NCBI RefSeq assembly: GCF_024436055.1
Contig: NZ_JANFNH010000003.1
Span: 1 to 64,000 of the forward strand
Length of the DNA: 64,000 nucleotides
From: Streptantibioticus rubrisoli
GTDB taxonomy: Bacteria; Actinomycetota; Actinomycetes; Streptomycetales; Streptomycetaceae
Direction of reading: 5' to 3'
The notes beneath the pieces are model-generated. The model saw only the letters and a list, made by a program, of their open reading frames with translations, was not told the DNA's origin and did no database searches. The position numbers and the translations under genes were made by a program. The first letter of the stretch is position 1. Each line of letters starts with the position of its first letter. Below, in pieces: positions 44,813-58,578 of the stretch.

Positions 44813-47206
44813 ATGTACGGCGGTATCATGTTGATCATGGGCAGGGGGCTCTTCGCACCGTCCGCCCCCGAGTTGCTTCTGGAGAGCGGGGGCGACTCGA
44901 AGGTGATGCGGTCGGGCAAGGCCTACTCGATCGGTCGCGACCCGGCCTGCGACATCGTCTACACCGATCCCCGGGTCTCCTGGCACCACGCGGTGATCCG
45001 TGCTGGCGAGGGCCACTGGACCCTGGAGGACGTGGGCAGCGCGCACGGGACGTACGTCGACGGCCGCCGCACGCGGTTGGCGCAACTGCGGCCGGGGACC
45101 GTGCTGCGCTTCGGCGACCCGCTGGACGGATCATGGGCGACGGTCACCGGTGTGCCGCGCTCGCCCGCGCCCCCGCCGTGGACGGCGCCCCCGCCGCCCC
45201 CGGCACCGCCCGCGGAAGAACCATGGCCCACGGGGTCGTTCCGCCGTCCCGCCTCGGTACGGCCCCTGCCGCTGTGGAGCGTTCACATCGGCCGGGCCGC
45301 CGACAACGACGTCGTCGTCGATGACCTGCTCGCCTCGCGGTACCACGCGGAACTGCGGGCGCTGCGGGACGGCGGCCACGAGATCGTGGACCTGGGCAGC
45401 CACAACGGTACGTTCGTCAACGGTCAGCCGGTCCAGCGGTGCGCCGTTCGGACCGGGGACATCGTCGGGATCGGCCACTCGCACTTCCGCCTGGTGGGCG
45501 ACGAACTCCAGGAGTTCGTGGACACCGGCGAGGTGTCGCTGACCGCGGAGGACCTGGCGGTCTCGGTGGAGGGCGGGCGCAGGACCCTGCTGGACCACGT
45601 CTCGTTCCCGGTGGGTGAGAAGTGCCTGCTGGCGGTGGTCGGACCGAGTGGTGCGGGCAAGTCGACGCTGCTCAACGCCCTGACCGGGCTGCGCCCCGCG
45701 GACCAGGGCACGGTGCTGTACGACGGCCGGGACATGTACCGGGACTACGCGGAGCTGCGCCAGCGCATCGGCCTGGTCCCGCAGGAGGACATCATGCACT
45801 CCCAGCTCACGGTGCGCCGGGCCCTGAGCTATGCCGCCGAGCTGCGCTTCCCCGGGGACACCGCGAAGGCCGAGCGGCAGGCGCGGGTCGACGAGGTGAT
45901 CGGCGAGCTGGGACTGCAGGCACGGGCGGACCAGCCGGTGCACACCCTCTCCGGCGGACAGCGCAAGCGGGTCAGTGTGGCGTTGGAACTGCTGACCAAG
46001 CCGTCCCTGCTCTTCCTCGACGAGCCGACGTCCGGCCTCGACCCGGGGATGGACCGCTCCGTCATGAACATGCTGCGCCGCCTCGCGGACGAGGGCCACA
46101 CGGTCATCGTCGTCACCCACAGCGTGCTCAGCCTCGACGTCTGCGACCGGCTGCTCGTGCTCGCCCCCGGCGGGAAGATCGCGTACTACGGGCCGCCTCG
46201 GGCCGCGCTGCCGTTCTTCGGCTTCAAGGAGTGGCCCGAGGCGTTCGAGGCGTTCGAGAACGACACCGAACGCGACTGGGCGGGCCGGTACCAGGCGTCC
46301 GCCCTGCGCAGCAAGTACATCACCGACGCTCTGGAACGGTCGCGGCGCCCGGCCCGTGCCCTGGCGGCTGGCCTCGGGAAGCTGCCGAAGCCGCAGGGCT
46401 GGCCGGGACAGCTGCGTACCCTCGTCCGCCGCTACGCGTCGGTTCTCAGCGCCGACCGGACCTTCCTGGTGGTCATGGTGGTGCTGCCGTTCATCATGGG
46501 CGCGATGACCCGGGCCCTGGCGGGCAGCAGGCTGACGCCGACCACCTCGGTCAACGCGCTGCTCATCCTGTGCGTCGGCGGTGTACTGACCGGCGCGGCG
46601 AACGCGGTACGCGAGCTGGTCAAGGAACGGGCGATCTACCAACGGGAGCGGGGGGCGGGGCTCTCCAGAACCGCGTACCTGGTCTCCAAGGTGGTGGTGC
46701 TGGGCCTGGTCACCGTGGTGCAGGCGGTGGTGCTCACCATGGTCGCCCTCGCCGGTGTCGATCTGGGCGTCAAGGGCGGTGGTGCGGTCGGCTTGCCGCC
46801 CCTTGCCGAGATCACGGTGGCGGTCGCCCTGCTGTCGTTCACCGCCATGATGCTCGGCCTGCTGGTCTCCGCGCTGGTGCGCAAGGAGGAGGTCACCATG
46901 CCCCTCCTCGTCCTGGTCGCCCTCGTGCAGGTCGTCTTCTGCGGGGCACTGCTCAAGCTGAACGGGGTTCCGGGACTGCAGCAGCTGTCCTGGCTGGTCC
47001 CCGCGCGCTGGGCGCTGGGCGCCATGGCCGCGACCGTCGACCTGCACCGGATCGTGCCGGGGGTCACGACGGCGGACCCGCTGTTCCGGCACTCCGCCGG
47101 GGCGTGGGGGCTCGACATCGGCATGCTGATCGCCCTCGCGGTGGTGCTCGGTGGCCTGGTGCGCAAGCTGCTGCGCCGCCACGAGCCCGCCGTCCTGCGC
47201 AGGTGA
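44813..47206 (+). CDS. FHA-FHA-ABC transporter (Rv1747-like)
   Basis: Single-chain ABC transporter of about 797 residues. Two forkhead-associated domains (YSIGRDPACDIVYTDPRVSW, GSAHGTYVDG; HIGRAADNDVVVDDLLASRY, LGSHNGTFVNG) are joined by a proline-rich linker. The ATPase follows (Walker [15 protein letters not shown], signature LSGGQRKRVSVAL, Walker B LLFLDEPTSGLDPG), then an ABCG-like membrane domain with six helices. FHA domains bind phosphothreonine, so Ser/Thr kinases probably regulate it, as for mycobacterial Rv1747. Start is uncertain: ATG at 44813, 44828 or 44837, none with a good SD. Confidence 0.92.
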   Translation: MYGGIMLIMGRGLFAPSAPELLLESGGDSKVMRSGKAYSIGRDPACDIVYTDPRVSWHHAVIRAGEGHWTLEDVGSAHGTYVDGRRTRLAQLRPGTVLRFGDPLDGSWATVTGVPRSPAPPPWTAPPPPPAPPAEEPWPTGSFRRPASVRPLPLWSVHIGRAADNDVVVDDLLASRYHAELRALRDGGHEIVDLGSHNGTFVNGQPVQRCAVRTGDIVGIGHSHFRLVGDELQEFVDTGEVSLTAEDLAVSVEGGRRTLLDHVSFPVGEKCLLAVVGPSGAGKSTLLNALTGLRPADQGTVLYDGRDMYRDYAELRQRIGLVPQEDIMHSQLTVRRALSYAAELRFPGDTAKAERQARVDEVIGELGLQARADQPVHTLSGGQRKRVSVALELLTKPSLLFLDEPTSGLDPGMDRSVMNMLRRLADEGHTVIVVTHSVLSLDVCDRLLVLAPGGKIAYYGPPRAALPFFGFKEWPEAFEAFENDTERDWAGRYQASALRSKYITDALERSRRPARALAAGLGKLPKPQGWPGQLRTLVRRYASVLSADRTFLVVMVVLPFIMGAMTRALAGSRLTPTTSVNALLILCVGGVLTGAANAVRELVKERAIYQRERGAGLSRTAYLVSKVVVLGLVTVVQAVVLTMVALAGVDLGVKGGGAVGLPPLAEITVAVALLSFTAMMLGLLVSALVRKEEVTMPLLVLVALVQVVFCGALLKLNGVPGLQQLSWLVPARWALGAMAATVDLHRIVPGVTTADPLFRHSAGAWGLDIGMLIALAVVLGGLVRKLLRRHEPAVLRR

Positions 47207-47482: not shown

Positions 47483-50400
47483 GTGGCCGCGGTGACCGGC
47501 CGAAGACGCAACGGGGCGGGCGGTGGGCTCGTCGGGCGCCGCCAGGAGGGGCGGCGGTTGGCGGAGGCGGTGGGCCGACTGGGCGCCGGAGCCTCCGTCC
47601 TGGTGGAGATCACCGGCGAACCGGGCATCGGCAAGACCCGGCTCCTGGACGAACTGGTCAAGTTGGCGGACGCCGCCGATGCCACCGTGCTCGCCGGGCG
47701 GTGCGCCGAATACGAACGGCAGACCCCCTTCTCGGCGTTCGCCGGAGCCATCGACGTCTCCGTCAACCCCGCACACCCCGACGGCGCCCCGCCCGGGCTC
47801 CCCGCCGCCAGCCCGACCGCGGCGGAGCCCACCGACGGCGGCGCAGGGCCAACCCCCGTGACCCTCCCGGGACTTGAGCGCGTCCGCGTGCACCGTCTGA
47901 TGGCGCGCCGACTGGCCCAGGCCGCCGCCGGGTCGCCCCTGGTCGTCGTCCTCGACGACCTGCACTGGGCCGACAACGGATCGCTGGAGCTCCTGCGGTA
48001 CGTGCTGCGCGGCCGGTCCGGCACCCCCCTGTTGCTGGCCGTGGCCTACCGGCCGCAGCAGGCGGACGAGCGCCTCGTCACCGCCCTCGCCGAAACCGCC
48101 CCCGAGTTCCATCGCGAACGGATGCCGCTGCAGGCGCTGTCAGCGGACGAGATCCGCACCCTGGTGGAGGCGGCGGGCGTGGCCTGCCCGCCCGGGCTGC
48201 ACGCCAGGAGCGAGGGCAACCCGCTGTACGCGCAGGCCCTCGTCGCGGTCGGTGCCAGCGCGGACACCTCCTTCACCGAAGGGCGGGATCGGAGCGGGGA
48301 CGTGACCCTCGCGGTCTCCCAGGTACTGCTCGCGGAGATCCAGTCGCTGGAGCCCGAGGAGACCGCCGTGCTGCGCACCGCCGCGGTCGCCGGAGACCCC
48401 TTCGACCCGGAGTTCGTGGTCTGCCTGGCCCGCGACGAGGTCACCGACGCCCCCGCCGCGCTGGCCCGGCTGCGCCGACGCGACCTGGTGCGTCCGGAAC
48501 CGACCGGCCCGGGGCTGCTGCGCTTCCGGCACCCGGTGCTGCGCAGCACCGTCTACCAACACGCGGGCCCCGGCTGGCTGTTGGCCGCCCACATGCGCGC
48601 CGCCGCCGCATTGTCCGAGCGCGGGGCACCGCCGACCGTGCTGGCCCCGCACGTCGCCCGCTTCGCCCGACCCGGCGACCGGCCGGCCGCCCAGGTGCTG
48701 GTCCGCGCCGCCCGCTCGGTGCTCACCAGCGTGCCCGCCTCCGCCGCCCACTGGCTGGGCCGGGCGCTCACCGTGCTGCCGGCCGGCGACACCGCCGAGC
48801 GCGGGGAGCTGTCCCTGCTGCTGGCACACGCGTGCGCCGCGGCCGGTGATCTGGACCGCGGCCGGGAGATCCTGCACGGCCTGATGGCCGCCCTGCCCGC
48901 GGAAGGCGAGCACCGCCTCCGCACGGTACGGCTGCTGTCCCTGGTCAACCGCGTCCAGGGCCGGTACCAGGAGGGGGCTGCCGTACTGGACGCCCCGTCG
49001 CGCGCGTCCAGTCCGGACGCGGCGGCCTCGCTCGCCCTGCGGGCCGCCTGCGAGGTACTGGCGTGCGACCCGCAGGCTCTCGGCCACGCGAGGGAGGCGG
49101 TGCGCCGCTGCCGGGACGGCCAGGCGGCCGCGACCCGGGCGCTGTGCCTGGGCACGCGTGCGTTGGTCGAGGCCTGCCGCGGCAGCATCCCGTGGGCCCT
49201 GGCGTCCGCGGCCAGCGCGGGTCGGCTGCTGGCCGGGATGAGCGACGAGGAGGTGGCGCCGCTGCTGGACTGCCTCGGCCAACTGGGCTGGGCGCAGGTG
49301 CTGTTGGAGAACCCCGGCCGGGCCAACGTCCATTTCGCGCGCGGCGTGAAGGCGGCGGAACGGACCGGGCAGAGCCATCTGTCGACCTATCTGCTGATCG
49401 GGCAGAGCCTCGCCCTGCTGCGCGAGGGCGACGTGCCGGACGCGTTACGGGCCTGCGACGAGGCGGAGGAACGGTCCCGGCTGCTGCGCAGCGACACCAT
49501 GCTGGCCCTCACCCTCGCCATGCGGGCCGCTGCGCGGATATGGCGCAGCGGCCCGGCCGCGGCGGCGCCGATCGCGCTGAGCGCCACCCGGCTGGGCGGG
49601 CGGTCCGGGCGCAACTGGTGGGACGAGGTGGCGTGGCGCATCCTGGCGCGGGTCCGGCTGTTGGAGGGCGACGGAGAGGACGCCATCCGGATCCTGCTGC
49701 GGACCGGGGGAGGGCAGGGGCTGCCGCGGGTGGACGTGTGCACCCGCCCGATGTGGTTGGCGGCGCTGGCCGAAGGTGAACTGCTGTGCGGGCGCGCGGC
49801 GGTGGCGACCGCGCTGCTGGACTCGGCCCTGTGCGAGCCCGCCGCCGCGCGGCTGCCCGCGCAGCGGGCCCATGTGCTGGCCGCGATGGCGCACGCGCAG
49901 CTGGTCGGGGGTTACCCCGCGCAAGCCGCGTCCACCGCCCTGCGGGCCGCGGCGACGTTCCGGCGCAGCGGCCAGCCACTGGACGAAGGCCGTTGCCGAC
50001 TGCTGGTGGCGGCGGGCCGCCGGGCAGTCGGCCAACCGGAGGCCGCCCAGGCCGAGTTGGCCAAAGCCTGGTCGATAGGGCGGTCCTGCGGCGCCCACTG
50101 GTTGCGCGATCAGGCGGCCTACCACAGCGGGCAGTTGGCGGCACCGCCGCCGGACGCCGCGCACGCCGCCGGACATCGCACCGGGCGATCGCCCGCGACC
50201 GGCGCCGCAGAGCCGCGCCGCGCTGGGCGTCCGGCCGCTGCCACCAGACCCGCCGCGCTGACGCCGCGTGAGCGGGAGGTCGTCGTCCTGGTACAGGACG
50301 GCCTGACCAACGGCGAGGCCGCCGACCGCCTGCATGTCACCGTGAAGGCCGTCGAGGCGCATCTGACCCGGGCCTACCGCAAACTCGGCGTGGCCACCCG

Positions 50401-50548
50401 CGCTGAACTCGCGGCGATGCTCCCGTACGAGCGGCCGGATCCGGCCAGCGAGCCCGTCTGGACCGCGCCATCCGCGACGAGCGCCGAGGGCTCGGCGCAG
50501 AGCGCGCGGACCAAGGACGACCGGCAGGTGACGCCCAGCTTCCGGTAG
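47483..50548 (+). CDS. Large LuxR-family (LAL) regulator, rightward
   Basis: Regulator of 1021 residues of the MalT/LAL class. An N-terminal AAA ATPase (Walker A GEPGIGKTRLL near 44-54; Walker B VVVLDDLHWADN) precedes a long helical-repeat middle and a C-terminal LuxR helix-turn-helix (LTPREREVVVLVQDGLTNGE, HLTRAYRKLG). GTG at 47483 is the best start. A 40-residue tail after the HTH is encoded opposite the HTH of the convergent paralogue, and the two genes overlap by 175 bp. It is a candidate controller of the peptide locus at 53-57 kb. Confidence 0.93.
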   Translation: MAAVTGRRRNGAGGGLVGRRQEGRRLAEAVGRLGAGASVLVEITGEPGIGKTRLLDELVKLADAADATVLAGRCAEYERQTPFSAFAGAIDVSVNPAHPDGAPPGLPAASPTAAEPTDGGAGPTPVTLPGLERVRVHRLMARRLAQAAAGSPLVVVLDDLHWADNGSLELLRYVLRGRSGTPLLLAVAYRPQQADERLVTALAETAPEFHRERMPLQALSADEIRTLVEAAGVACPPGLHARSEGNPLYAQALVAVGASADTSFTEGRDRSGDVTLAVSQVLLAEIQSLEPEETAVLRTAAVAGDPFDPEFVVCLARDEVTDAPAALARLRRRDLVRPEPTGPGLLRFRHPVLRSTVYQHAGPGWLLAAHMRAAAALSERGAPPTVLAPHVARFARPGDRPAAQVLVRAARSVLTSVPASAAHWLGRALTVLPAGDTAERGELSLLLAHACAAAGDLDRGREILHGLMAALPAEGEHRLRTVRLLSLVNRVQGRYQEGAAVLDAPSRASSPDAAASLALRAACEVLACDPQALGHAREAVRRCRDGQAAATRALCLGTRALVEACRGSIPWALASAASAGRLLAGMSDEEVAPLLDCLGQLGWAQVLLENPGRANVHFARGVKAAERTGQSHLSTYLLIGQSLALLREGDVPDALRACDEAEERSRLLRSDTMLALTLAMRAAARIWRSGPAAAAPIALSATRLGGRSGRNWWDEVAWRILARVRLLEGDGEDAIRILLRTGGGQGLPRVDVCTRPMWLAALAEGELLCGRAAVATALLDSALCEPAAARLPAQRAHVLAAMAHAQLVGGYPAQAASTALRAAATFRRSGQPLDEGRCRLLVAAGRRAVGQPEAAQAELAKAWSIGRSCGAHWLRDQAAYHSGQLAAPPPDAAHAAGHRTGRSPATGAAEPRRAGRPAAATRPAALTPREREVVVLVQDGLTNGEAADRLHVTVKAVEAHLTRAYRKLGVATRAELAAMLPYERPDPASEPVWTAPSATSAEGSAQSARTKDDRQVTPSFR

Positions 50549-53265
50549 ATCCGGGTCAGATGGGCCTCCACCGTCTTCGCGGTGATGCCGAGCCGGGCGG
50601 CGACCTGGCCGTTGGCCAGGCCACGGGCCACCAGATCGGCGATCTGTGACTCCCGCCGGGTCAGGCCGGACGGCGGCACCGGCCGTGCGGCGGGCGGTAC
50701 TCCGGCCGGTGAGCCCTCGCGCACCCGTCCGGCCACCGACATCGACCGGCGCTGCTCGGCGACCGCCAACTCGCGCAGCCGACCCGCCCCGCAGTCGGCG
50801 GCGATCGCCCGGACCCGGCCGAGTACCGTCTGCAACTGGGTCCACTGGCAGACACCGGCCAGTGCGCGGGCCAGCACCAGCAGCGCGCGGCCCTCCTCCA
50901 GCGCCATGCCCGCCTCGCTGAACGCGCTGGCCGCCGCCCGCGCCGCACCCACCGCCTCACCGGGCCTCCCCGAGACCAGCGCGAGCACGGCCCGCCCGGC
51001 GTCGACATGGGCGGACTGCACCGGCGAACCCAACGCGGCCGCCACCGAGTCGGCCCGCTTGAGCCACTGGTCGGCCCGTTGGGTGCGTCCGCGCCGCGCC
51101 TCGGCCTCGGCGAGCTCCCGCAGCCACCGCGGATGGCTGCATCGTGCCAACCACCGCAACCGGGGGCCGCCCGCCACGGCGACGAAGGACTCCGGATCGC
51201 CGGGGCCCGCTCCCGGCGCGCTCCACAACCCGGCCGCCCAGAGCTGGCCGCTCGCGGCGACCGTCGCCACCGTGCGGGGCAGCGCGCGCAGGCGGCGGCA
51301 GGCCTCGTCCGCCAGGGCACCGGTTGGCGGCACCGTGCCCTGCCACGACTCGGCACAGCACAGCAGCGCCAGCGCCACCGCGGTCTGCTCCGGGGCCTGT
51401 TCGCACCGCGCGATCTCGGCGGACTCCCGGTAGCACTCGATGGCCGCGTCAAGGCAGCCCAGTTCGTACAGTGCCAGCCCGCGGATCAGCAACGCGCCCG
51501 GCAGCAACTGCCGTTGACCGGTGCGCCGCGCCACGCCCACCGCCCGGTCACCATGGCGAAGCGCCTCACCGGGTGTGCCGACAAGCCACTCGCTCCACGC
51601 CGTGAGGATGACCGAATCCAGCAGTGCCGCCAGTCCCGGATCGGGCAGCGCGTCCAACTCGGCCACCGCTACCCGCAGTTGGCCGCGGGCGCTGGCCGTG
51701 TCGCCGTCGTGCGCGCACACCGCCGCGTCCAGCGCGCGTCGGCGCACCCGTGGTCCCGGCGCGTGGTCCGCCGTGGCCCCGGCGCGCCGCAGGTACTGGC
51801 GGGCGGCACCGGGCTGCCCCGCCAGGAGCGCGGCACACCCGGCCTGGACGGACAACGCCGCTGCCTGCGCGCCGTCGGGCCCGAGCCGCTCCAGGGCGGT
51901 TTCCAGCAGCGTGGCCGCGTCCCCGTGGCCGCCCTGCAACTGCGCGTAGCCGGCGGCCAGTTGGGTCAGCGCCGCGTACTGCGCCGCCGTCCCGCCCGTG
52001 GGCCGCGCGGCGCCGCCGCTGTCGCCGCTCGGCGGCGCGGTGAGCAGTCCGTCGAGTACCGAGCGTGCCTCGGACAACCGCCCGTCCCCGCCCAGGGCCC
52101 TGGCCAGCAGCACCAGCAGCCGTCGCCGGTCCCGCTCGCCCGCCGCGCTCGGTGGCACCCGGCGCAGCCCTTCGGCGGCCCAGTACCCGGCGGTCGCCGG
52201 AGACCAGGCCAGCGCGGTGACCGCGGCCGCCTCGAACGCGGCCACCGCGCCCGGCTCTCCGGCCCGCGCGCAGCGGGACAGGTGCCGGGCGCGGACGAGC
52301 ACGTCGTCCGCGCCGCCCAGGTGACGTACCGCGCACCGGTGGGCGGCCAGTCGGCGCTCGGGTGCCATGCGCTGGTACAGCCGGGCGCGCAGCAGCGGAT
52401 GGCGGAACCGGAACAGGCCGCCGTCACCGGGGTCCGCGCGGATGAGGTCGCGCCGGGCCAACTCGTCCACGGCGGCGAACAGCGTGGGTGCCGTCATCCC
52501 GGCGACAGCGGCCGCCAGATCGGGCCGAAACGGTTCTCCGATCACCGCGGCCGCCTCCGCCACCCGTCGGCAGATGTCGTCAAGGCCGTCGAACTCGGCG
52601 TCCGACACCGGTTCGGCGGGCAGTGGCAGCAGTTCCAGAAGGTCGATGTCGGCGCGGACCTCCGCCGGGCCCGGCAGCCGCGGGCAGCGCGCCAGCCATT
52701 CGACGTAGCGCGGAATCCCCTGCCCGACCGCCGCGCACCAGGCCGCCGCCCGCGCGCCGAGCCCCGTACCCGCCAGCCGCCGTGCCTCGTCGGCGGTCAG
52801 CGGCCCCACCGCGATCCGCACCCGGTGCCGGTCGGCGGGCAGGCCGCACAGCAACCGGGACAGCGCCGCGGGCGCCTGGCGGCTGCGGTAGGCGCACAGC
52901 ACGGCGGGCCGCGCTCGGCGCACCGCGTCGAGCACGACCGGCTCGGCCCGGTGCAGATCGTCAAGGACGAGCAGCACCGGACGACCGGACCGCGTCCTGA
53001 CGGGCACTTCGGCGACCGCCGCATCGTCCCGCGCCCCGGCGCCGAGCCGTAGCACCGCGGCCCCCGCCCGCTCGGCACGGGCCGCGATCTCCTCCAGCAG
53101 ACGGGACTTGCCGACTCCTGGCTCACCGGTGACTTCGACGAACGGTGTGGCGCCCCCCTCCAGCGCCCGCAGCACCTCACCGGCCCGGCACAACTCGCCC
53201 TCGCGCCCGAGCAACGCGCCGGGCCGCTCGGCCCGTCTTTCCCCGTCGGACTCCCCGTGCACCAT
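50374..53265 (-). CDS. Large LuxR-family (LAL) regulator, leftward
   Basis: Paralogous regulator of 963 residues: Walker A GEPGVGKSRLLEE near residues 45-57, Walker B VLLVLDDLHRAEP, helical repeats and a C-terminal LuxR HTH (LTRRESQIADLVARGLANGQ, HLTRIYRKLG). Its last residues (ATPSLR) are the antisense of the partner's YRKLGVA. It is read leftward with the TPR gene 102 bp upstream and may be part of the peptide-locus transcript. Long tandem genes of this type usually respond to small ligands bound by the repeats. Confidence 0.93.
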   Translation of the reverse strand: MVHGESDGERRAERPGALLGREGELCRAGEVLRALEGGATPFVEVTGEPGVGKSRLLEEIAARAERAGAAVLRLGAGARDDAAVAEVPVRTRSGRPVLLVLDDLHRAEPVVLDAVRRARPAVLCAYRSRQAPAALSRLLCGLPADRHRVRIAVGPLTADEARRLAGTGLGARAAAWCAAVGQGIPRYVEWLARCPRLPGPAEVRADIDLLELLPLPAEPVSDAEFDGLDDICRRVAEAAAVIGEPFRPDLAAAVAGMTAPTLFAAVDELARRDLIRADPGDGGLFRFRHPLLRARLYQRMAPERRLAAHRCAVRHLGGADDVLVRARHLSRCARAGEPGAVAAFEAAAVTALAWSPATAGYWAAEGLRRVPPSAAGERDRRRLLVLLARALGGDGRLSEARSVLDGLLTAPPSGDSGGAARPTGGTAAQYAALTQLAAGYAQLQGGHGDAATLLETALERLGPDGAQAAALSVQAGCAALLAGQPGAARQYLRRAGATADHAPGPRVRRRALDAAVCAHDGDTASARGQLRVAVAELDALPDPGLAALLDSVILTAWSEWLVGTPGEALRHGDRAVGVARRTGQRQLLPGALLIRGLALYELGCLDAAIECYRESAEIARCEQAPEQTAVALALLCCAESWQGTVPPTGALADEACRRLRALPRTVATVAASGQLWAAGLWSAPGAGPGDPESFVAVAGGPRLRWLARCSHPRWLRELAEAEARRGRTQRADQWLKRADSVAAALGSPVQSAHVDAGRAVLALVSGRPGEAVGAARAAASAFSEAGMALEEGRALLVLARALAGVCQWTQLQTVLGRVRAIAADCGAGRLRELAVAEQRRSMSVAGRVREGSPAGVPPAARPVPPSGLTRRESQIADLVARGLANGQVAARLGITAKTVEAHLTRIYRKLGVTCRSSLVRALCAEPSALVADGAVQTGSLAGSGRSYGSIAASSARVATPSLR

Positions 53266-53367: not shown

Positions 53368-55578
53368 TCAGCCCCGGTCCGCGGCGGACGCCACCGGTGA
53401 CACCTCGGCCGAGCGGTCAGGTGCCAGGGTGACGAAGCGCTCGAAGTCCAGCCGCGCCCCCGGCAGATCACCCACCCGCAGGCGGCACGTTCCGCGCCGC
53501 AGCCAGCCGTCCGGCTCCTCGGGGTCGAGCGCCACCGCGCGGTCGAAGTCGGCGATCGCGCGGTGCCACCGGTTCAGTTCCTGGTGGACGCTTCCCCGGT
53601 TGAGGAGGACCACGGCGTCCTCGGCGATCTCCAACGACCGGCTGAAGTCGTCGACCGCCCCGGCCAGGTCCCCGGTCTCGAACGCGAGCACCGCGCGGGT
53701 GGCCCACGCCTGCGCGCACTCGGGATCGGCCTCGACCGCGGTGTCCAGGGCGGTGCGGGCGGTGTCGTACCGTCCCGCGTCCGACTCCAACCGGCCCAGC
53801 AGGCACAGCAGATGCGGATGGGTGGGCCGCACGGACAGACCGGCCGCCACGACCTCCGCCGCCTCCGCCGCACGGCCCGACTCGACGAGCAGCCCCGCGA
53901 GATTGACGTGCGCGTCCACGTACTCGGGATCGATCTCCAGCACATAGCGGAAGTCCGCCAGCGCGCCGTCGATGTCGCCCCTGGCCGCGAGGAGGTCCGC
54001 GCGGTTGCAGTACAGCTCAGGGAACGGCGGGCTCAGCCGCATCGCGGTCTCGTATTCGGCCAGCGCCTCGTCGTCCCGTCCCAACCGGCGCAGCACTCCC
54101 GCCCGGTCGAAGTGGTACTCCGGGTAGTTCGGATCCTCCTCGATCACCGCCGTGTAGTCCGCCAGCGCCTGTTCGTACCGGCCTGTCGCCATGTACACCT
54201 GGGCCCGGTTGTACCGCAGCACCGAGCGGTGCAGCCGGTGCTCGCCGGGCTCCAACTCGCGGTCGAGCCGGGCCAGTCCCTCGTCCACCAGGCGCAACGC
54301 CTCGTCGGGGCGGCCCAGATGGTTCTCGATCAGCGCCAACCCGTTCTGGTGGAAGACGGTGTGGAACGCCCGCTGCTTGGCGTCGGGCAGCAGCGCGGAT
54401 ATCGCGATCGACTCGTTGATCCAGGCAAGCGCTTTTCGGTGGTCGCGTCGCTCGTCGGGGAAGTGGCGGGTGTAGAGCATCGCCGTCGCGTAGGCGGCCT
54501 GGAGGTGGACGGCCGGGTCGGTGGATACGGTACGGACCTCGTCGTACAGCGCCTCGGCCTCCTCCGGGCGGGCCAGCGCCGCCAGTGAGGTGGTCATCTT
54601 GGTGGTGAACGCCCACCACATCTCGGTGTCCCGCCGCCAGTCGACCACCGCCCTGCCGCGCCGCCCGAAGTCGACGGTCGCCTCGTAGAACCCCATGTCG
54701 ATGCAGTAGTCCAACGCCTCGCGCAGCGCCCGCGCACCGGCCCCCGACGGGTCCGAACCGTGTTCCCGGTGGTACGGGATGGCGCCCAGCCGCAGGCTCT
54801 GCTCGCCCGTGGCCGCCAGCCGGTCGGCCCTGCGGTCGTGGAGCGCGGCCCGCGCCCCGGAGGACAGCGCGGCGTAGGCGGCCCTTGCTCCCGGGGCGTC
54901 GTCGGTGCAGTCGGATTCGACGTACCGCTCGGCGAGTTGACGCGAGGGGGCCGCGACCGGCGGCGTGTCACTCCGCGGTACGTCGGCCCGGCGGGCGTAC
55001 CGGCCCACCGCGGCGGCCAGCGGATCCTCGCCGCCTGCCGGGTTCCGCGCGCTGTCCGGCTCGTCGGTACCGGTGCCGACCACCAGCGTGACCAACTCCG
55101 GATCCAGGCGGCGCAGTAGTACGGACAGCAGCTCCCGGTCGGTCTGGTCGGCCGCGTGGACGTTGTCGAAGGTCAGCGAGCGCGGCCCGGTCGCGGTGTG
55201 CCGCACGAAGTCCCTGAGGAACTCGGTGAGTCCATGGGCCAGCCGCAGGGTGCGCAACCTGGAGTAGAAGCGGGTCCGCTCCTCCGGCACGGCGAGCGAG
55301 GTCAGCGTCTCGTGGCTGGACGGCACCAGGGTGCGCAACTCGGGTGCCACCGTGAGGATTTCGATCGTATGGGCCTCGACCAGCTTGGGCACGGCGGCCA
55401 GCGCGCCGGGGACGAGCGCGCGCATCAGCGTGCCCGCGGCCGTGTAGGGTCCGCGCAGTCGCCGGTGGGCGTCCACCACCGGGAGGAGCGGCTCGGGCAG
55501 CTCCAACCCCGCGGTGACCTGGGCAAGTTGGCGGCTTGAGGCTTCGATCCAGTGATGGCGACAGGGGGTCAGGGGCAT
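53368..55578 (-). CDS. TPR protein with degenerate STAND ATPase-like N-terminus
   Basis: Protein of 736 residues. The C-terminal half is a run of tetratricopeptide repeats (ALADYTAVIEEDPNYPEYHF, LADFRYVLEIDPEYVDAHVN, AIADFDRAVALDPEEPDGWL). The N-terminal 200 residues keep a Walker B-like strand (LTFDNVHAADQTDRELLSVL) as in LAL regulators, but no Walker A is visible and no HTH follows, so ATP use and DNA binding look lost. It begins 13 bp after the M50 protease gene, in the same operon. A peptide-sensing or scaffold role is inferred from TPR peptide-receptor precedents. Confidence 0.85.
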   Translation of the reverse strand: MPLTPCRHHWIEASSRQLAQVTAGLELPEPLLPVVDAHRRLRGPYTAAGTLMRALVPGALAAVPKLVEAHTIEILTVAPELRTLVPSSHETLTSLAVPEERTRFYSRLRTLRLAHGLTEFLRDFVRHTATGPRSLTFDNVHAADQTDRELLSVLLRRLDPELVTLVVGTGTDEPDSARNPAGGEDPLAAAVGRYARRADVPRSDTPPVAAPSRQLAERYVESDCTDDAPGARAAYAALSSGARAALHDRRADRLAATGEQSLRLGAIPYHREHGSDPSGAGARALREALDYCIDMGFYEATVDFGRRGRAVVDWRRDTEMWWAFTTKMTTSLAALARPEEAEALYDEVRTVSTDPAVHLQAAYATAMLYTRHFPDERRDHRKALAWINESIAISALLPDAKQRAFHTVFHQNGLALIENHLGRPDEALRLVDEGLARLDRELEPGEHRLHRSVLRYNRAQVYMATGRYEQALADYTAVIEEDPNYPEYHFDRAGVLRRLGRDDEALAEYETAMRLSPPFPELYCNRADLLAARGDIDGALADFRYVLEIDPEYVDAHVNLAGLLVESGRAAEAAEVVAAGLSVRPTHPHLLCLLGRLESDAGRYDTARTALDTAVEADPECAQAWATRAVLAFETGDLAGAVDDFSRSLEIAEDAVVLLNRGSVHQELNRWHRAIADFDRAVALDPEEPDGWLRRGTCRLRVGDLPGARLDFERFVTLAPDRSAEVSPVASAADRG

Positions 55579-55591
55579 CGGGATCCTCCGG

Positions 55592-56830
55592 TCAGGACAG
55601 CACGTGCTTGAGTTCTGGGCCGCGTTGCCGCCGGTCGCGCGCCACCACGTAGCCGATCACCGCGAGTTGGGCGAGGTTGATGGCGAGGAAGCCGACGCTG
55701 TCCGCGAGGCCCGCGGCGCTCTGTCCGGCTGGTCCGTGGAGCAGCCGTTCGGCCACCGTCGACAGGATGCGCCAGGCGACGGGCAGCACGCCCAGCAGCA
55801 GGGTGCCGATCGACACGGTCCAGCCGAGCAGCAGCAGCCAGGAGTACCAGCGGGCCACGGCCCGGTCCCGGGGGTGCCACCGCGACTCGTCGAGCAGGGC
55901 GTGCCGCCTGCCCAGCAGGCGGTTGAGCCGGTTGCGCAGCACGCGGCGGGCGGTGGTCTGCAGGTCCACGCAGTCCAGCACGGTGACGACCACGTAGTAC
56001 AGGTCCGTCTGCAGGTAGAAGAAGAACTGCCACAGCAGCCGCAGCAGCGTCATGTAGGCGAAGGCGAGGGCGATCGCGCCCGCCAGTGACGGTTGGCCGT
56101 CCGGGCGCAGCGTGGCCGCGGCGAACAGCGTCAGGACCGCGAGGACACCGAGGTCCGCGAAGATCCCGGCCAGCATGGGGACGAACCTCTTGCGCCGCTC
56201 CACCGCGACCAGGCCGTCCATGGTGGTGAGGAACACCATGTAGTACAGGCGCCTGCCGATGGACAGGCTGGAACGCAGCCCGAGTCGGCGCCCCGCCAGC
56301 GCGTGGGCGGACTCGTGGAGCAGGATCAGCGGGAACTGTCCGATGAACATGGTCAGTTCGAGAACGGTCATGTAGTGCGTGAAGAACAGGTTGTGGTACC
56401 GGGGGAGCAGGACCGGGGAGCGCGCCATGGCGATCCCGCAGCACGTCAGCAGCGCGAGGAAGCACACCGCCGAGACCGGGGAGAAGACGGCCCGGCCCAA
56501 CCTCCGCCAGCGCACCGGGACCACCGCCGCCGCGGGCTCGTCCGTCTCGCGGACGAAGTCCAACTCCCGTAAGGCGGCGATGAAGTCCTCCATGTCGACC
56601 GTCTCGCCGTACGTCTCCTGGTACCACGCGGCCGCAACCTCGGGCGCCGCGCCCGCCTCCAACCGGCGCAGCAGTGCGGCTCCGTCGGCGGGCAGTACCG
56701 CGTACGAGTCGATGTCGACGCGCCCGACGGTGACCTCATCGCCCTGGTCCAGATAGGTCAGCGGGTGCAGGGCGATCGGTCGCCCGGCCTGCGCGCCGGT
56801 GCTTTCGTTACCGGGGATCACTGCGGACAC
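55592..56830 (-). CDS. M50-like membrane metalloprotease with PqqD-like domain
   Basis: Protein of 412 residues. The N-terminal 95 residues look like a PqqD/RRE-type winged helix (SYAVLPADGAALLRRLEAGA, YGETVDMEDFIAALRELDFV). A polytopic membrane domain follows with the zinc motif HESAH (172-176) in ILLHESAHALAGRRLG and a later QTDLYYVVVTVLDCVDL segment, both typical of YydH-like peptide zinc metalloproteases. Such proteins process or export ribosomal peptides. It is encoded directly downstream of a 30-residue peptide gene, separated by a hairpin. GTG at 56830 is the most likely start; its SD (GGAG) is rather distant. Confidence 0.85.
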   Translation of the reverse strand: MSAVIPGNESTGAQAGRPIALHPLTYLDQGDEVTVGRVDIDSYAVLPADGAALLRRLEAGAAPEVAAAWYQETYGETVDMEDFIAALRELDFVRETDEPAAAVVPVRWRRLGRAVFSPVSAVCFLALLTCCGIAMARSPVLLPRYHNLFFTHYMTVLELTMFIGQFPLILLHESAHALAGRRLGLRSSLSIGRRLYYMVFLTTMDGLVAVERRKRFVPMLAGIFADLGVLAVLTLFAAATLRPDGQPSLAGAIALAFAYMTLLRLLWQFFFYLQTDLYYVVVTVLDCVDLQTTARRVLRNRLNRLLGRRHALLDESRWHPRDRAVARWYSWLLLLGWTVSIGTLLLGVLPVAWRILSTVAERLLHGPAGQSAAGLADSVGFLAINLAQLAVIGYVVARDRRQRGPELKHVLS

Positions 56831-56883
56831 GGCTGGGATGCTCCAGGTCGTCGGCCAGGAGGCCCGGAAAGGGCCGGGAAAGC

Positions 56884-56910
56884 GGATCCGGCCCGGGCAG
56901 GGCCGGATCC
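56884..56910 (-). terminator. Perfect 11-bp intercistronic hairpin (peptide/protease junction)
   Basis: GGATCCGGCCC (56884-56894), loop GGGCA, GGGCCGGATCC (56900-56910). It lies 30 bases beyond the peptide gene stop and before the protease gene, in the transcript of both. A second small hairpin, GGCCC-GGAAA-GGGCC, is at 56861-56875. Strong hairpins here are typical of attenuators that keep a peptide precursor far more abundant than its processing enzymes. Confidence 0.75.
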
Positions 56911-56940
56911 ACGGGACAACACCTCGTGCGCCGACGAGCG

Positions 56941-57033
56941 TCAGGCGTAGGCGACGCAGGTGCAGCCGTACAGTGCGTGGGCCGCGGCGGTCAGCCGCAC
57001 GGCACCGGGCTTGCGGATCGCGATCTTCTTCAT
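56941..57033 (-). CDS. 30-residue putative peptide precursor
   Basis: Tiny reading frame with a good SD (GGAG at 57039-57042, 5 bases from the ATG). The peptide begins with a basic stretch, MKKIAIRKPG, has an alanine-rich middle (VRLTAAAHAL) and ends YGCTCVAYA with a CxC pair. A basic leader and a short cysteine-bearing C-terminus are what a ribosomally synthesised, modified or secreted peptide would show. The following PqqD-domain metalloprotease, the intercistronic hairpin and the upstream LuxR-type box support a real gene. I do not recognise the family, and modification chemistry is not evident: no radical SAM, lanthionine or YcaO enzyme is adjacent. Confidence 0.75.
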   Translation of the reverse strand: MKKIAIRKPGAVRLTAAAHALYGCTCVAYA

Positions 57034-57163
57034 GGGATCTCCGTCCTGAAGTCCTGAGGGACGACCGGGCGTCCGGGCGGACACCCGGGGCACTGGGGCG
57101 TCACCGCCGAACCGGTGGGGTGACGACCGGCAACCAGACTGGCAGCGCGGCGGATCCAGGACA

Positions 57164-57179
57164 TTGGGGGAATCCCTAC
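57164..57179. promoter_or_regulatory. PimM/LAL-like LuxR box upstream of the peptide gene
   Basis: On the minus strand GTAGGGATTCCCCCAA (57179-57164) matches 13 of 16 positions of the published PimM-class operator CTVGGGAWWTCCCBAG. It lies 131 bp upstream of the peptide ATG and 146 bp upstream of the divergent permease gene. With two LuxR-type regulators in the same locus, it is a candidate binding site for one of them. Confidence 0.45.
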
Positions 57180-57324
57180 AGTGACCCTACGCGTGTCCCC
57201 GCCAGGCTCGTGTGGTGCGCGTCTCCCCGAGAACCGCCAACTTGCCGCGCATTACCTGCACTTGACGTGCCACGATCAGGGCCAGAAGTGCAGCGGATCA
57301 CATACCGGACGGCAGGTGGGTGCC

Positions 57325-58578
57325 ATGGCCGACAGGGCGGACGTCGACGGCGTGCGGACGCGCGGTCGGGTGGACGGCGCGGTGCGAGCGGTCACCGTGG
57401 AGGCACACGGCATCGACGTGATCGGGGACGCCGACCGCAAGGGCCGCCCGCGGCAGCTGTTCTGGCCGTGGTTCGGCGCCAACGTCTCGATCCTCGGGCT
57501 CAGTTACGGGTCGTTCACCCTGGGCTTCGGGATCTCCTTCTGGCAGGGGCTGGCCGCCGGTGCGGTCGGCATCGTCTTCTCCTTCCTGCTCTGCGGGTTC
57601 ATAGCGGTGGCGGGCAAGCGCGGTTCGGCGCCGACCATGGTGCTGGGGCGGGCCGCGTTCGGGGTGCGCGGCAACCGCGTGCCGTCCGTGCTGTCCTGGA
57701 TGCTCAGCGTCGGCTGGGAGACGGTGCTGACCACGCTCGCCACGCTGGCCACCGCGACCGTCTTCACCCGGCTCGGCTGGGGCGGCGGCGAAACCACCAA
57801 GGTGGTCGCGCTGGTCGTGGTGGCGGTGCTCACCGTCGGCGCCGGGATCGGCGGATTCGACCTGATCATGCGGACCCAGACGGTGATCACCGTGGTGACC
57901 GCCGTGCTCACCGTCGCCTACGTGGTGCTGGTCGCCGATCGCATCCACTGGGAAGCGGTGTCCGACCTGCCGTCCGGCTCGGCGCAGCAGGTCATCGGCG
58001 CGCTGGTGTTCCTGATGACCGGGTTCGGCCTGGGCTGGGTCAACGCGGCGGCGGACTACTCGCGTTATCTGCCCCGCTCGTCCTCCGGCCGGGCGGTGGT
58101 CGGCTGGACCACCTTCGGTTCGTCGCTGGCCCCACTGGTGCTGCTGGTCTTCGGGCTGCTGCTGGCCGGTTCCGCGCCGGACCTCAACAAGTCCATCGCC
58201 GACGATCCGATCGGCGCGCTGACCACGCTGCTGCCCACGTGGTTCCTGGTGCCGTTCGCCGTCGTCGCCGTGCTGGGACTGGTCGGCGGGGCGGTGCTCA
58301 ACATCTACTCCTCCGGCCTGGCTCTGCTCTCCGGCGGGCTGCGGGTACCGCGTCCGGTCGCCGCGCTGATCGACGGGGTGATCGTGGTGCTCGGCACCTG
58401 CTATCTGGTCTTCGTCTCCGGCGACTTCCTGGGGCAGTTCGAGGGGTTCCTGACCACCCTCGGCGTGCCCATAGCCGCCTGGTGCGGCATCATGCTCGCC
58501 GACATCGCGCTGCGCCGCCGGGACTACGCGGAAGCGGACCTGTACCGTCCGTCCGGCCGCTACGGTGACGTGTCCTAG
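57325..58578 (+). CDS. codB: NCS1 cytosine/purine-type permease, ended early by an amber codon
   Basis: Membrane transporter reading of 417 residues with about ten helices (LFWPWFGANVSILGLSYGSF near the start, NAAADYSRYLP, GGAVLNIYSSGLALL), typical of cytosine/purine/allantoin permeases. ATG at 57325 has AGGTGGG upstream. Translation stops at TAG (58576-58578) directly after RPSGRYGDVS, although the frame stays open for 94 more codons that encode the expected last two helices. Family members have a tryptophan at about this point, so TGG to TAG is likely. Without read-through the protein lacks its C-terminal helices and is probably inactive. Confidence 0.85.
   Translation: MADRADVDGVRTRGRVDGAVRAVTVEAHGIDVIGDADRKGRPRQLFWPWFGANVSILGLSYGSFTLGFGISFWQGLAAGAVGIVFSFLLCGFIAVAGKRGSAPTMVLGRAAFGVRGNRVPSVLSWMLSVGWETVLTTLATLATATVFTRLGWGGGETTKVVALVVVAVLTVGAGIGGFDLIMRTQTVITVVTAVLTVAYVVLVADRIHWEAVSDLPSGSAQQVIGALVFLMTGFGLGWVNAAADYSRYLPRSSSGRAVVGWTTFGSSLAPLVLLVFGLLLAGSAPDLNKSIADDPIGALTTLLPTWFLVPFAVVAVLGLVGGAVLNIYSSGLALLSGGLRVPRPVAALIDGVIVVLGTCYLVFVSGDFLGQFEGFLTTLGVPIAAWCGIMLADIALRRRDYAEADLYRPSGRYGDVS

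Follow-up and report, generated by a model that had tools for sequence, protein, structure and literature searches.

In the epipeptide system, the short precursor EpeX/YydF lies beside the M50 membrane protease EpeP/YydH (LiaK family), for which a role in its cleavage and export has been proposed (PMC10885120, PMC7614699), and the M50 proteases EpeP, TglG and TmoG have been reported to act on RiPP precursors (PMC10885120). In the pearlin pathways, the target of the membrane M50 protease TglG or TmoG is the C-terminal portion of a small precursor (PMC10885120). RRE-dependent RiPPs, such as the lasso peptides and the TOMMs, combine an RRE fold with a conserved leader and a variable core. The pairing of a TPR protein with a short peptide gene is, for its part, familiar from the Rap-Phr / RRNPP systems.

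Here we describe a three-gene locus of Streptantibioticus rubrisoli that resembles each of these systems in part: it encodes a short precursor with a conserved leader and a variable core, an M50 membrane protease with an RRE domain (in a structure model) and a TPR protein. In contrast to the epipeptide loci, the conserved cassette lacks both the radical SAM epimerase and the ABC pair, while the fusion of the RRE to the protease and the TPR partner are features of its own. It differs from the pearlins in that its tails are encoded and variable, from the RRE-dependent RiPPs in that the RRE sits on the protease and no modifying enzyme belongs to the core cassette (flavoenzymes occur in some lineages), and from Rap-Phr / RRNPP in that no HTH was seen among 25 of the 30 Pfam matches of the TPR protein. 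Membership of the described classes was also assessed directly. The protease scores 17 bits (E 0.0036) against the LiaK/YydH family NF058609, whose cutoff is 225, and a radical SAM epimerase was found neither among 16 window proteins scanned with Pfam nor as a conserved partner in 11 loci; the YydH-like class proposed in the initial annotation thus reduces to a distant resemblance, and the EpeXEPAB/LiaK assignment was dropped. A peptide aminoacyl-tRNA ligase, as expected for a pearlin, was likewise missing from the same 16 proteins. An Agr-type autoinducing peptide was rejected, since the conserved membrane protease is M50-like and not an AgrB cysteine protease; moreover, the C-terminal Cys of some tails is at odds with a thiolactone of the Agr type.

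Among the titles found in an open-access library, none describes this cassette, and six leader strings are absent from that library; the main text of the RRE-Finder paper contains neither 'M50' nor 'tetratricopeptide' (PMC7470986). One annotated record that carries a TPR-type cassette labels both its protease and its precursor 'hypothetical protein'. The cassette is apparently a widespread and undescribed small-peptide-making system of many soil bacteria allied to Streptomyces.

The window, i.e., the whole stretch of DNA that was analysed, comprises 64,000 nt of contig NZ_JANFNH010000003.1 on the forward strand, and the cassette lies on its minus strand. The precursor gene (56941–57033, stop codon 56941–56943) has 30 codons and translates to MKKIAIRKPGAVRLTAAAHALYGCTCVAYA; a putative GGAG ribosome-binding site (57039–57042) precedes the ATG with a 5-nt spacer. 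The small frame of the initial annotation, with its proper SD, basic leader and YGCTCVAYA end, is thereby confirmed. A perfect 11-bp hairpin (56884–56910) lies between the peptide gene and the protease gene (55592–56830, 412 residues), the latter being identified by sequence profiles, alignment and a structure model. The TPR gene (53368–55578, 736 residues) starts 13 nt past the protease ORF, where it had been placed before. The next gene downstream on the same strand (50374–53265) encodes a LAL-type LuxR regulator according to Pfam, a possible associate of the cassette; LAL regulators are also found near other cassettes, at positions that are not conserved. A second LAL-type regulator gene (47483–50548) converges on it, the 3' ends overlapping by ~175 nt, and an FHA-ABC transporter is encoded at 45032–47203 (Pfam). 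On the other flank of the peptide gene, an NCS1 permease gene (57181–58578) is read from the opposite strand; its frame hits an in-frame TAG at 58576–58578, beyond which 94 further codons are open in the same frame, so that either a truncated gene or a sequence error is indicated. No known RiPP-modifying family was detected by Pfam among 16 distinct window proteins, drawn from beyond 1–38 kb, and to this extent the earlier statement that no such enzyme is nearby holds. Three of the 16, the peptide aside, had no match at all, and nothing resembling a sigma-70 promoter appeared in a scan of 56500–57400.

Searched for the protease, species-representative genomes yielded 10 relatives, each with an upstream short frame carrying the same leader. 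In three overlapping genome samples, the protease profile matched 100 of 394 genomes of the family (E 1e-20), 17 of 394 of the class (1e-15) and 4 of 296 of the phylum. The scores form two groups, one above 300 bits (74, 8 and 2 genomes of the family, class and phylum samples, respectively) and one below 245 bits, a sister branch that was left out of the cassette counts. The cassette is present in 74 of the 394 family-sample genomes, or about one in five; 52 genomes contain one cassette, 15 two, 5 three and 2 at least four, four candidates per genome having been scored, and two or more thus occur in 22 of 74. Within the genus of the window, one of three genomes, its own, has the protease. We fetched 122 loci, including those of the named species-representative relatives, and 115 were left once 7 duplicates had been removed.

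A leader ORF was found upstream of the protease in 114 of the 115 non-duplicate loci (108 of 114 by the first regular expression, with five variant leaders and locus L090 in addition), amounting to 123 copies and 96 distinct peptides; the leader frame is absent only from L127. The 117 copies that were counted first lie 78–760 nt upstream of the protease-match start, and as a control, the same DNA read on the antisense strand contained 2 matches to the regular expression in 874 kb. The initial annotation had made its claim depend on whether the frame recurs next to homologous M50/TPR pairs, a check that was strongly passed. The 30-codon frame is a member of a large gene family, whose precursors are ~24–39 residues long and consist of a leader with the consensus MKKIx[VI]RKxGxVRLT and a variable tail of 9–24 residues. 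Twelve of the peptides were scanned and matched no Pfam or NCBIfam model, it being noted that such scans can miss very short proteins. The pN/pS ratio was 0.12 for the leader vs 0.41 for the tail (200 non-independent pairs, chosen at >=80% identity), which points to purifying selection on both parts, stronger on the leader. Tandem precursors, 2–4 per locus, were observed in 5 of the 115 loci, with different tails in 4 of these 5.

In the window, the leader MKKIAIRKPGAVRLT spans 56989–57033 and the variable tail AAAHALYGCTCVAYA spans 56944–56988. Residues K2, K3, R7, G10 and T15 are near-invariant (94–96 of the 96 distinct peptides) and alternate with aliphatic or small residues, a pattern expected of a strand pairing with an RRE. 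Most peptides show S/A/T-A-A after Thr15, followed by a lineage-variable tail that is short, poor in charged residues and free of Glu. Other loci have tail ends such as YCCGAS, YGTWPWC, YLPWDCMVQV, CQCPYSANA, CSIYKKPS and YGVAAKATSLPISICG. None of the 96 distinct leaders contains Cys, while all 96 distinct tails contain both Tyr and Cys, a combination expected in ~4% of tails from the composition of neighbouring proteins. The rule holds in 35 of 35 protease clusters at 70% identity and in 21 of 21 at 60% (79 cassettes). The order of the two residues varies, as does their spacing, from adjacent to 16 residues apart. Tails change slowly between close relatives, and the four cassettes of one genome have unlike tails. 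It should be noted that the rule is not absolute, since a plasmid-borne cassette with a TPR neighbour encodes the peptide MRKISVRRTEPIKVTSAPFSHQPAIVPV, which has neither residue (two plasmid records were read of 21 with a protease match). This outlier (L181:7725-7898, Streptomyces sp. NBC_01450) is surrounded by transposases and retains its TPR partner.

The N-terminal PqqD-like domain of the protease, as claimed in the initial annotation, was not recovered by Pfam at E 0.1, but the fold supports it. The AlphaFold2 model (pLDDT 84) shows three strands and three helices at residues 25–89 and is mostly helical thereafter. With VIA-align, residues 17–96 (56543–56782) superimpose on TbiB1 with its leader peptide (Z 10.4, rmsd 2.3, 78 residues), on lasso B1 (Z 9.8) and on TigE (Z 9.2), two of these RRE domains having been solved with a leader peptide. 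Residues 106–347 align to the site-2 proteases SpoIVFB (Z 7.7), an RseP orthologue (7.4) and M. jannaschii S2P (7.0), values that are middling by the scale of VIA-align itself. TbiB1 and MjS2P were among the top four entries returned by Foldseek, whose lowest E-value was 0.10. At the sequence level, Pfam gave M50 alone, weakly (E 0.0051), and the protease profile found no solved homologue at E 1. The zinc motif HESAH (residues 172–176, 56303–56317) was confirmed, with H172, E173 and H176 invariant in 11 rows, as is Asp 276 in LQTDLYY (56003–56005), which we take to be a candidate for the third zinc-binding residue of the M50 family. HExxH, a later Asp and a membrane fold mark the protein as a predicted M50 site-2 protease, and according to the model it joins a leader-binding RRE domain of the PqqD type to the site-2-protease fold.

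The TPR protein consists of an N-terminal domain (~1–230) with a Walker-B-like strand, in which no P-loop was seen, and of a TPR superhelix over its C-terminal two thirds. Assignment by sequence was unsuccessful, as strong matches were obtained only to generic TPR and repeat models. In a profile comparison, the N-terminal domain matched LAL regulators once and weakly (54 columns, probability 28%, E 0.0006), and the protein has a weak AAA_16 Pfam match that starts past the P-loop. A possible ancestor of this domain is the STAND ATPase found in LAL regulators, the P-loop having been lost; given the weak LAL match, the label 'pseudo-STAND' is only a suggestion.

The N-terminal part, with its HRxLRGPYT and RTRFY motifs, is specific enough to serve as a search query. 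A TPR match was present in all 122 loci (duplicates included), on the same strand and beginning 0–430 nt past the protease-match end. In the family sample, 105 of 105 high-scoring proteases had the TPR N-domain alongside, a broken match above 300 bits (G073:C4:3607622), absent from the peptide counts, being included. Conversely, 104 of 108 N-domain matches above 100 bits had a protease (388 family-sample genomes; matches below 54 bits left out of the pairing counts). The two proteins are nearly obligate partners. We considered whether orphan TPR genes might act as eavesdroppers and rejected this, the four unpaired matches being L213, beside a broken protease, L214, where the contig ends inside the protease match, and L215 and L216, in which no protease was seen and of which L216 matches only from residue 111. 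Distant TPR relatives in L218 and L219 (28–31% identity over most of the length, no protease in the fetched stretch) are possible stand-alone versions of the protein. Finally, the partial rank correlation of tail divergence was 0.12 with the TPR protein vs 0.17 with the protease (79 cassettes, short-flank loci excluded; L010, whose start is unclear, left out of the TPR alignment). The tail follows the TPR protein no better than it follows the protease, so this comparison lends no support to the TPR protein as a specific receptor.

The lower-scoring proteases belong to a sister branch, represented by 19 loci (L066-L085, L083 not counted). A ThiF/E1-like cluster, of which four members were scanned with NCBIfam and three with Pfam, lies alongside in 15 of 19 loci, and a protein of a cluster that holds a BTAD (SARP) regulator in 7 of 19. 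Short precursor frames occur in 15 of 19, e.g., ITIRLLDKIETT or MKIQIRKLERIETT (examples are L066:3704, L072:3413/3530/3641 and L076:4084), with leaders of the type [IV]x[IV]R[KRL]x[DE]x[IV][EK][TA]T that, judged by eye, look like those of the TPR cassettes. Whereas the proteases are homologous and the leaders comparable, ThiF here replaces the TPR protein and the tails do not follow the Tyr and Cys rule. On a FastTree phylogeny of 93 proteases (79 TPR-linked and 14 sister, 5 of the 19 sister loci left out), the two groups are separated by one change. Together, the pairing in the sister branch and the split on the tree suggest that the RRE-M50 protease with a matching short precursor is the common core, and that the partner, ThiF or TPR, is what varies. 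The sister branch is apparently a second undescribed peptide system.

Beyond the trio, no conserved protein-coding neighbour was found in the first 11 loci, and the conserved core includes neither a transporter nor a modifying enzyme nor a DNA-binding receptor. Additions are lineage-specific, as counted by our own ORF calls and clustering in the 81 of 115 loci with long flanks. A member of a flavin reductase cluster directly follows the TPR gene in 14 of the 81 and lies upstream in 2; its identity relies on a PF01613 match of the one member scanned with Pfam, while two other members have FerA-, HpaC- and StyB-type matches below cutoffs. Its distribution on the protease tree requires 7 or more changes, which indicates several gains or losses. 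Four loci with tails ending in Cys (L161-L164) adjoin genes for two flavoenzymes, a flavin reductase and a divergent HFCD flavoprotein (PF02441), as well as for a LAL regulator, and these enzymes are the best candidates for tail tailoring. A general partnership of the HFCD flavoprotein with a C-terminal Cys was discarded, given that no such protein was seen in the long flanks of L011, L012 and L125, whose tails have a C-terminal Cys as well.

Regulators are often found nearby. An HTH/ImmA-like/DUF6545 group, whole or in part, is located near 14 of the 81 loci in varying position and orientation, its distribution on the tree requiring 5 or more changes (L086-L089, L100, L103, L105, L116, L117, L119, L120, L123, L124 and L159). 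Other HTH_31 proteins, SARP regulators and LAL regulators belonging to one cluster are located near 8, 4 and 5 cassettes, respectively. Of these, HTH_31 (below cutoff), DUF6545 and BTAD were assigned by Pfam; the ImmA-like protein had no match and was named by eye. The association is suggestive only, because a shared chromosomal place is possible and regulators are common in such genomes.

The 113-nt intergenic RNA between the peptide and protease genes has a computed folding energy of -62.8 kcal/mol (z -4.1), a value matched by 1 of 200 shuffled sequences. The perfect 11-bp hairpin noted initially, with its 5-nt loop, is real but not shared by all loci: of 107 testable intergenic regions, 37 have a best inverted repeat that beats ~95% of 50 shuffles, against ~6 expected by chance, and the hairpin was rejected as a family-wide feature.

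The gene order had been called a hallmark of peptide maturation/export or of a pheromone system, and its maturation context, an RRE-M50 protease with a TPR partner, is supported. That the trio is a maturation cassette we hold to be very probable. From the fold and the conservation, the basic leader KKIxVRKxGxVRLT would bind the RRE domain of the protease, probably as a beta strand; the M50 zinc site would cut near the leader/tail junction, around S/A/T-A-A after Thr15, and the short Tyr- and Cys-containing tail would be released or exported. The TPR protein may act as a cytosolic partner, either sensing the peptide or handling the precursor. The most likely use of the tail would be that of a secreted peptide signal with several versions per genome. 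A signal is our first choice because tails within a genome are unlike, the TPR gene is next in every locus and regulators are often near; as a statement on the use of the tail it is tentative. Weighing against this reading are the absence of a transporter, a modifying enzyme and a DNA-binding receptor from the core, a tail–TPR coupling that does not exceed the tail–protease one, the slow change of tails among close relatives, the plasmid tail devoid of Tyr and Cys, the two congeneric genomes that lack the protease, and the weak Foldseek and middling S2P scores of the model. Taken as a whole, a three-gene RiPP-type maturation cassette whose tail is released, likely as a secreted signal, is the best explanation and one that we consider probable.

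Other readings have to be weighed against it. The most interesting alternative is Tyr/Cys chemistry, in which the tail would be a crosslinked RiPP with Tyr and Cys joined, e.g., as a thioether, by the TPR/protease pair, by added flavoenzymes or by an enzyme encoded elsewhere. The indirect evidence for it is the presence of both residues in every distinct tail and every protease cluster, far above background, together with the flavoenzymes of some lineages, namely the reductase after the TPR gene and the HFCD flavoprotein beside four cassettes with tails ending in Cys. However, 67 of the 81 loci lack a flavin reductase after the TPR gene (by ORF clustering, which may have missed some), as does the window; three further tails ending in Cys have no HFCD flavoprotein, which itself matches CoaBC best among NCBIfam models and the RiPP Cys decarboxylase CypD more weakly; the plasmid outlier dispenses with both residues; and the range of spacings is broad for a single reaction. 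We regard a crosslink as unlikely, and its extended form, a new RiPP class common in Streptomycetaceae with a near-universal Tyr-Cys crosslink, a core of RRE-M50 protease and TPR/pseudo-STAND protein that has no known modifying enzyme, flavoenzymes in some lineages only, and many parallel signals, as rather less likely again. An antimicrobial or kin-killing peptide, epipeptide-like and matured by the M50 protease with the TPR protein in self-protection or regulation, is doubtful to a similar degree as the crosslink. The nearest named protease family, if only weakly so, is EpeP/YydH (NF058609; PMC7614699, PMC10885120), but the conserved cassette has neither an ABC immunity pair nor a radical SAM enzyme, and the tails are short, devoid of Glu and sparsely charged.

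Two further readings deny the tail a career of its own. The peptide could regulate the protease as a ligand or pseudosubstrate whose Cys binds the zinc, the protease itself acting on another substrate. Site-2 proteases are often active in regulated proteolysis, and each of the 96 distinct tails has a Cys to offer; nevertheless, Tyr is equally constant, RiPP leaders are what RRE domains bind, and tandem precursors carry different tails, so that this reading is very improbable. Least credible of all is an attenuation uORF that acts on the protease gene via the hairpin and whose product has no role. The hairpin does sit between the frame and the protease start, but it outperforms shuffles in only a minority of regions, the constraint operates at the amino-acid level across the entire frame, and neither the RRE on the protease nor the tandem copies would be accounted for.

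We therefore return to the maturation cassette with a released, likely signalling tail as the preferred explanation. If the tails are signals, Streptomyces would possess a gene-encoded peptide-signal family beside its known small-molecule signals. If they are modified, the Tyr and Cys rule in a cassette without a known enzyme would point to new chemistry.
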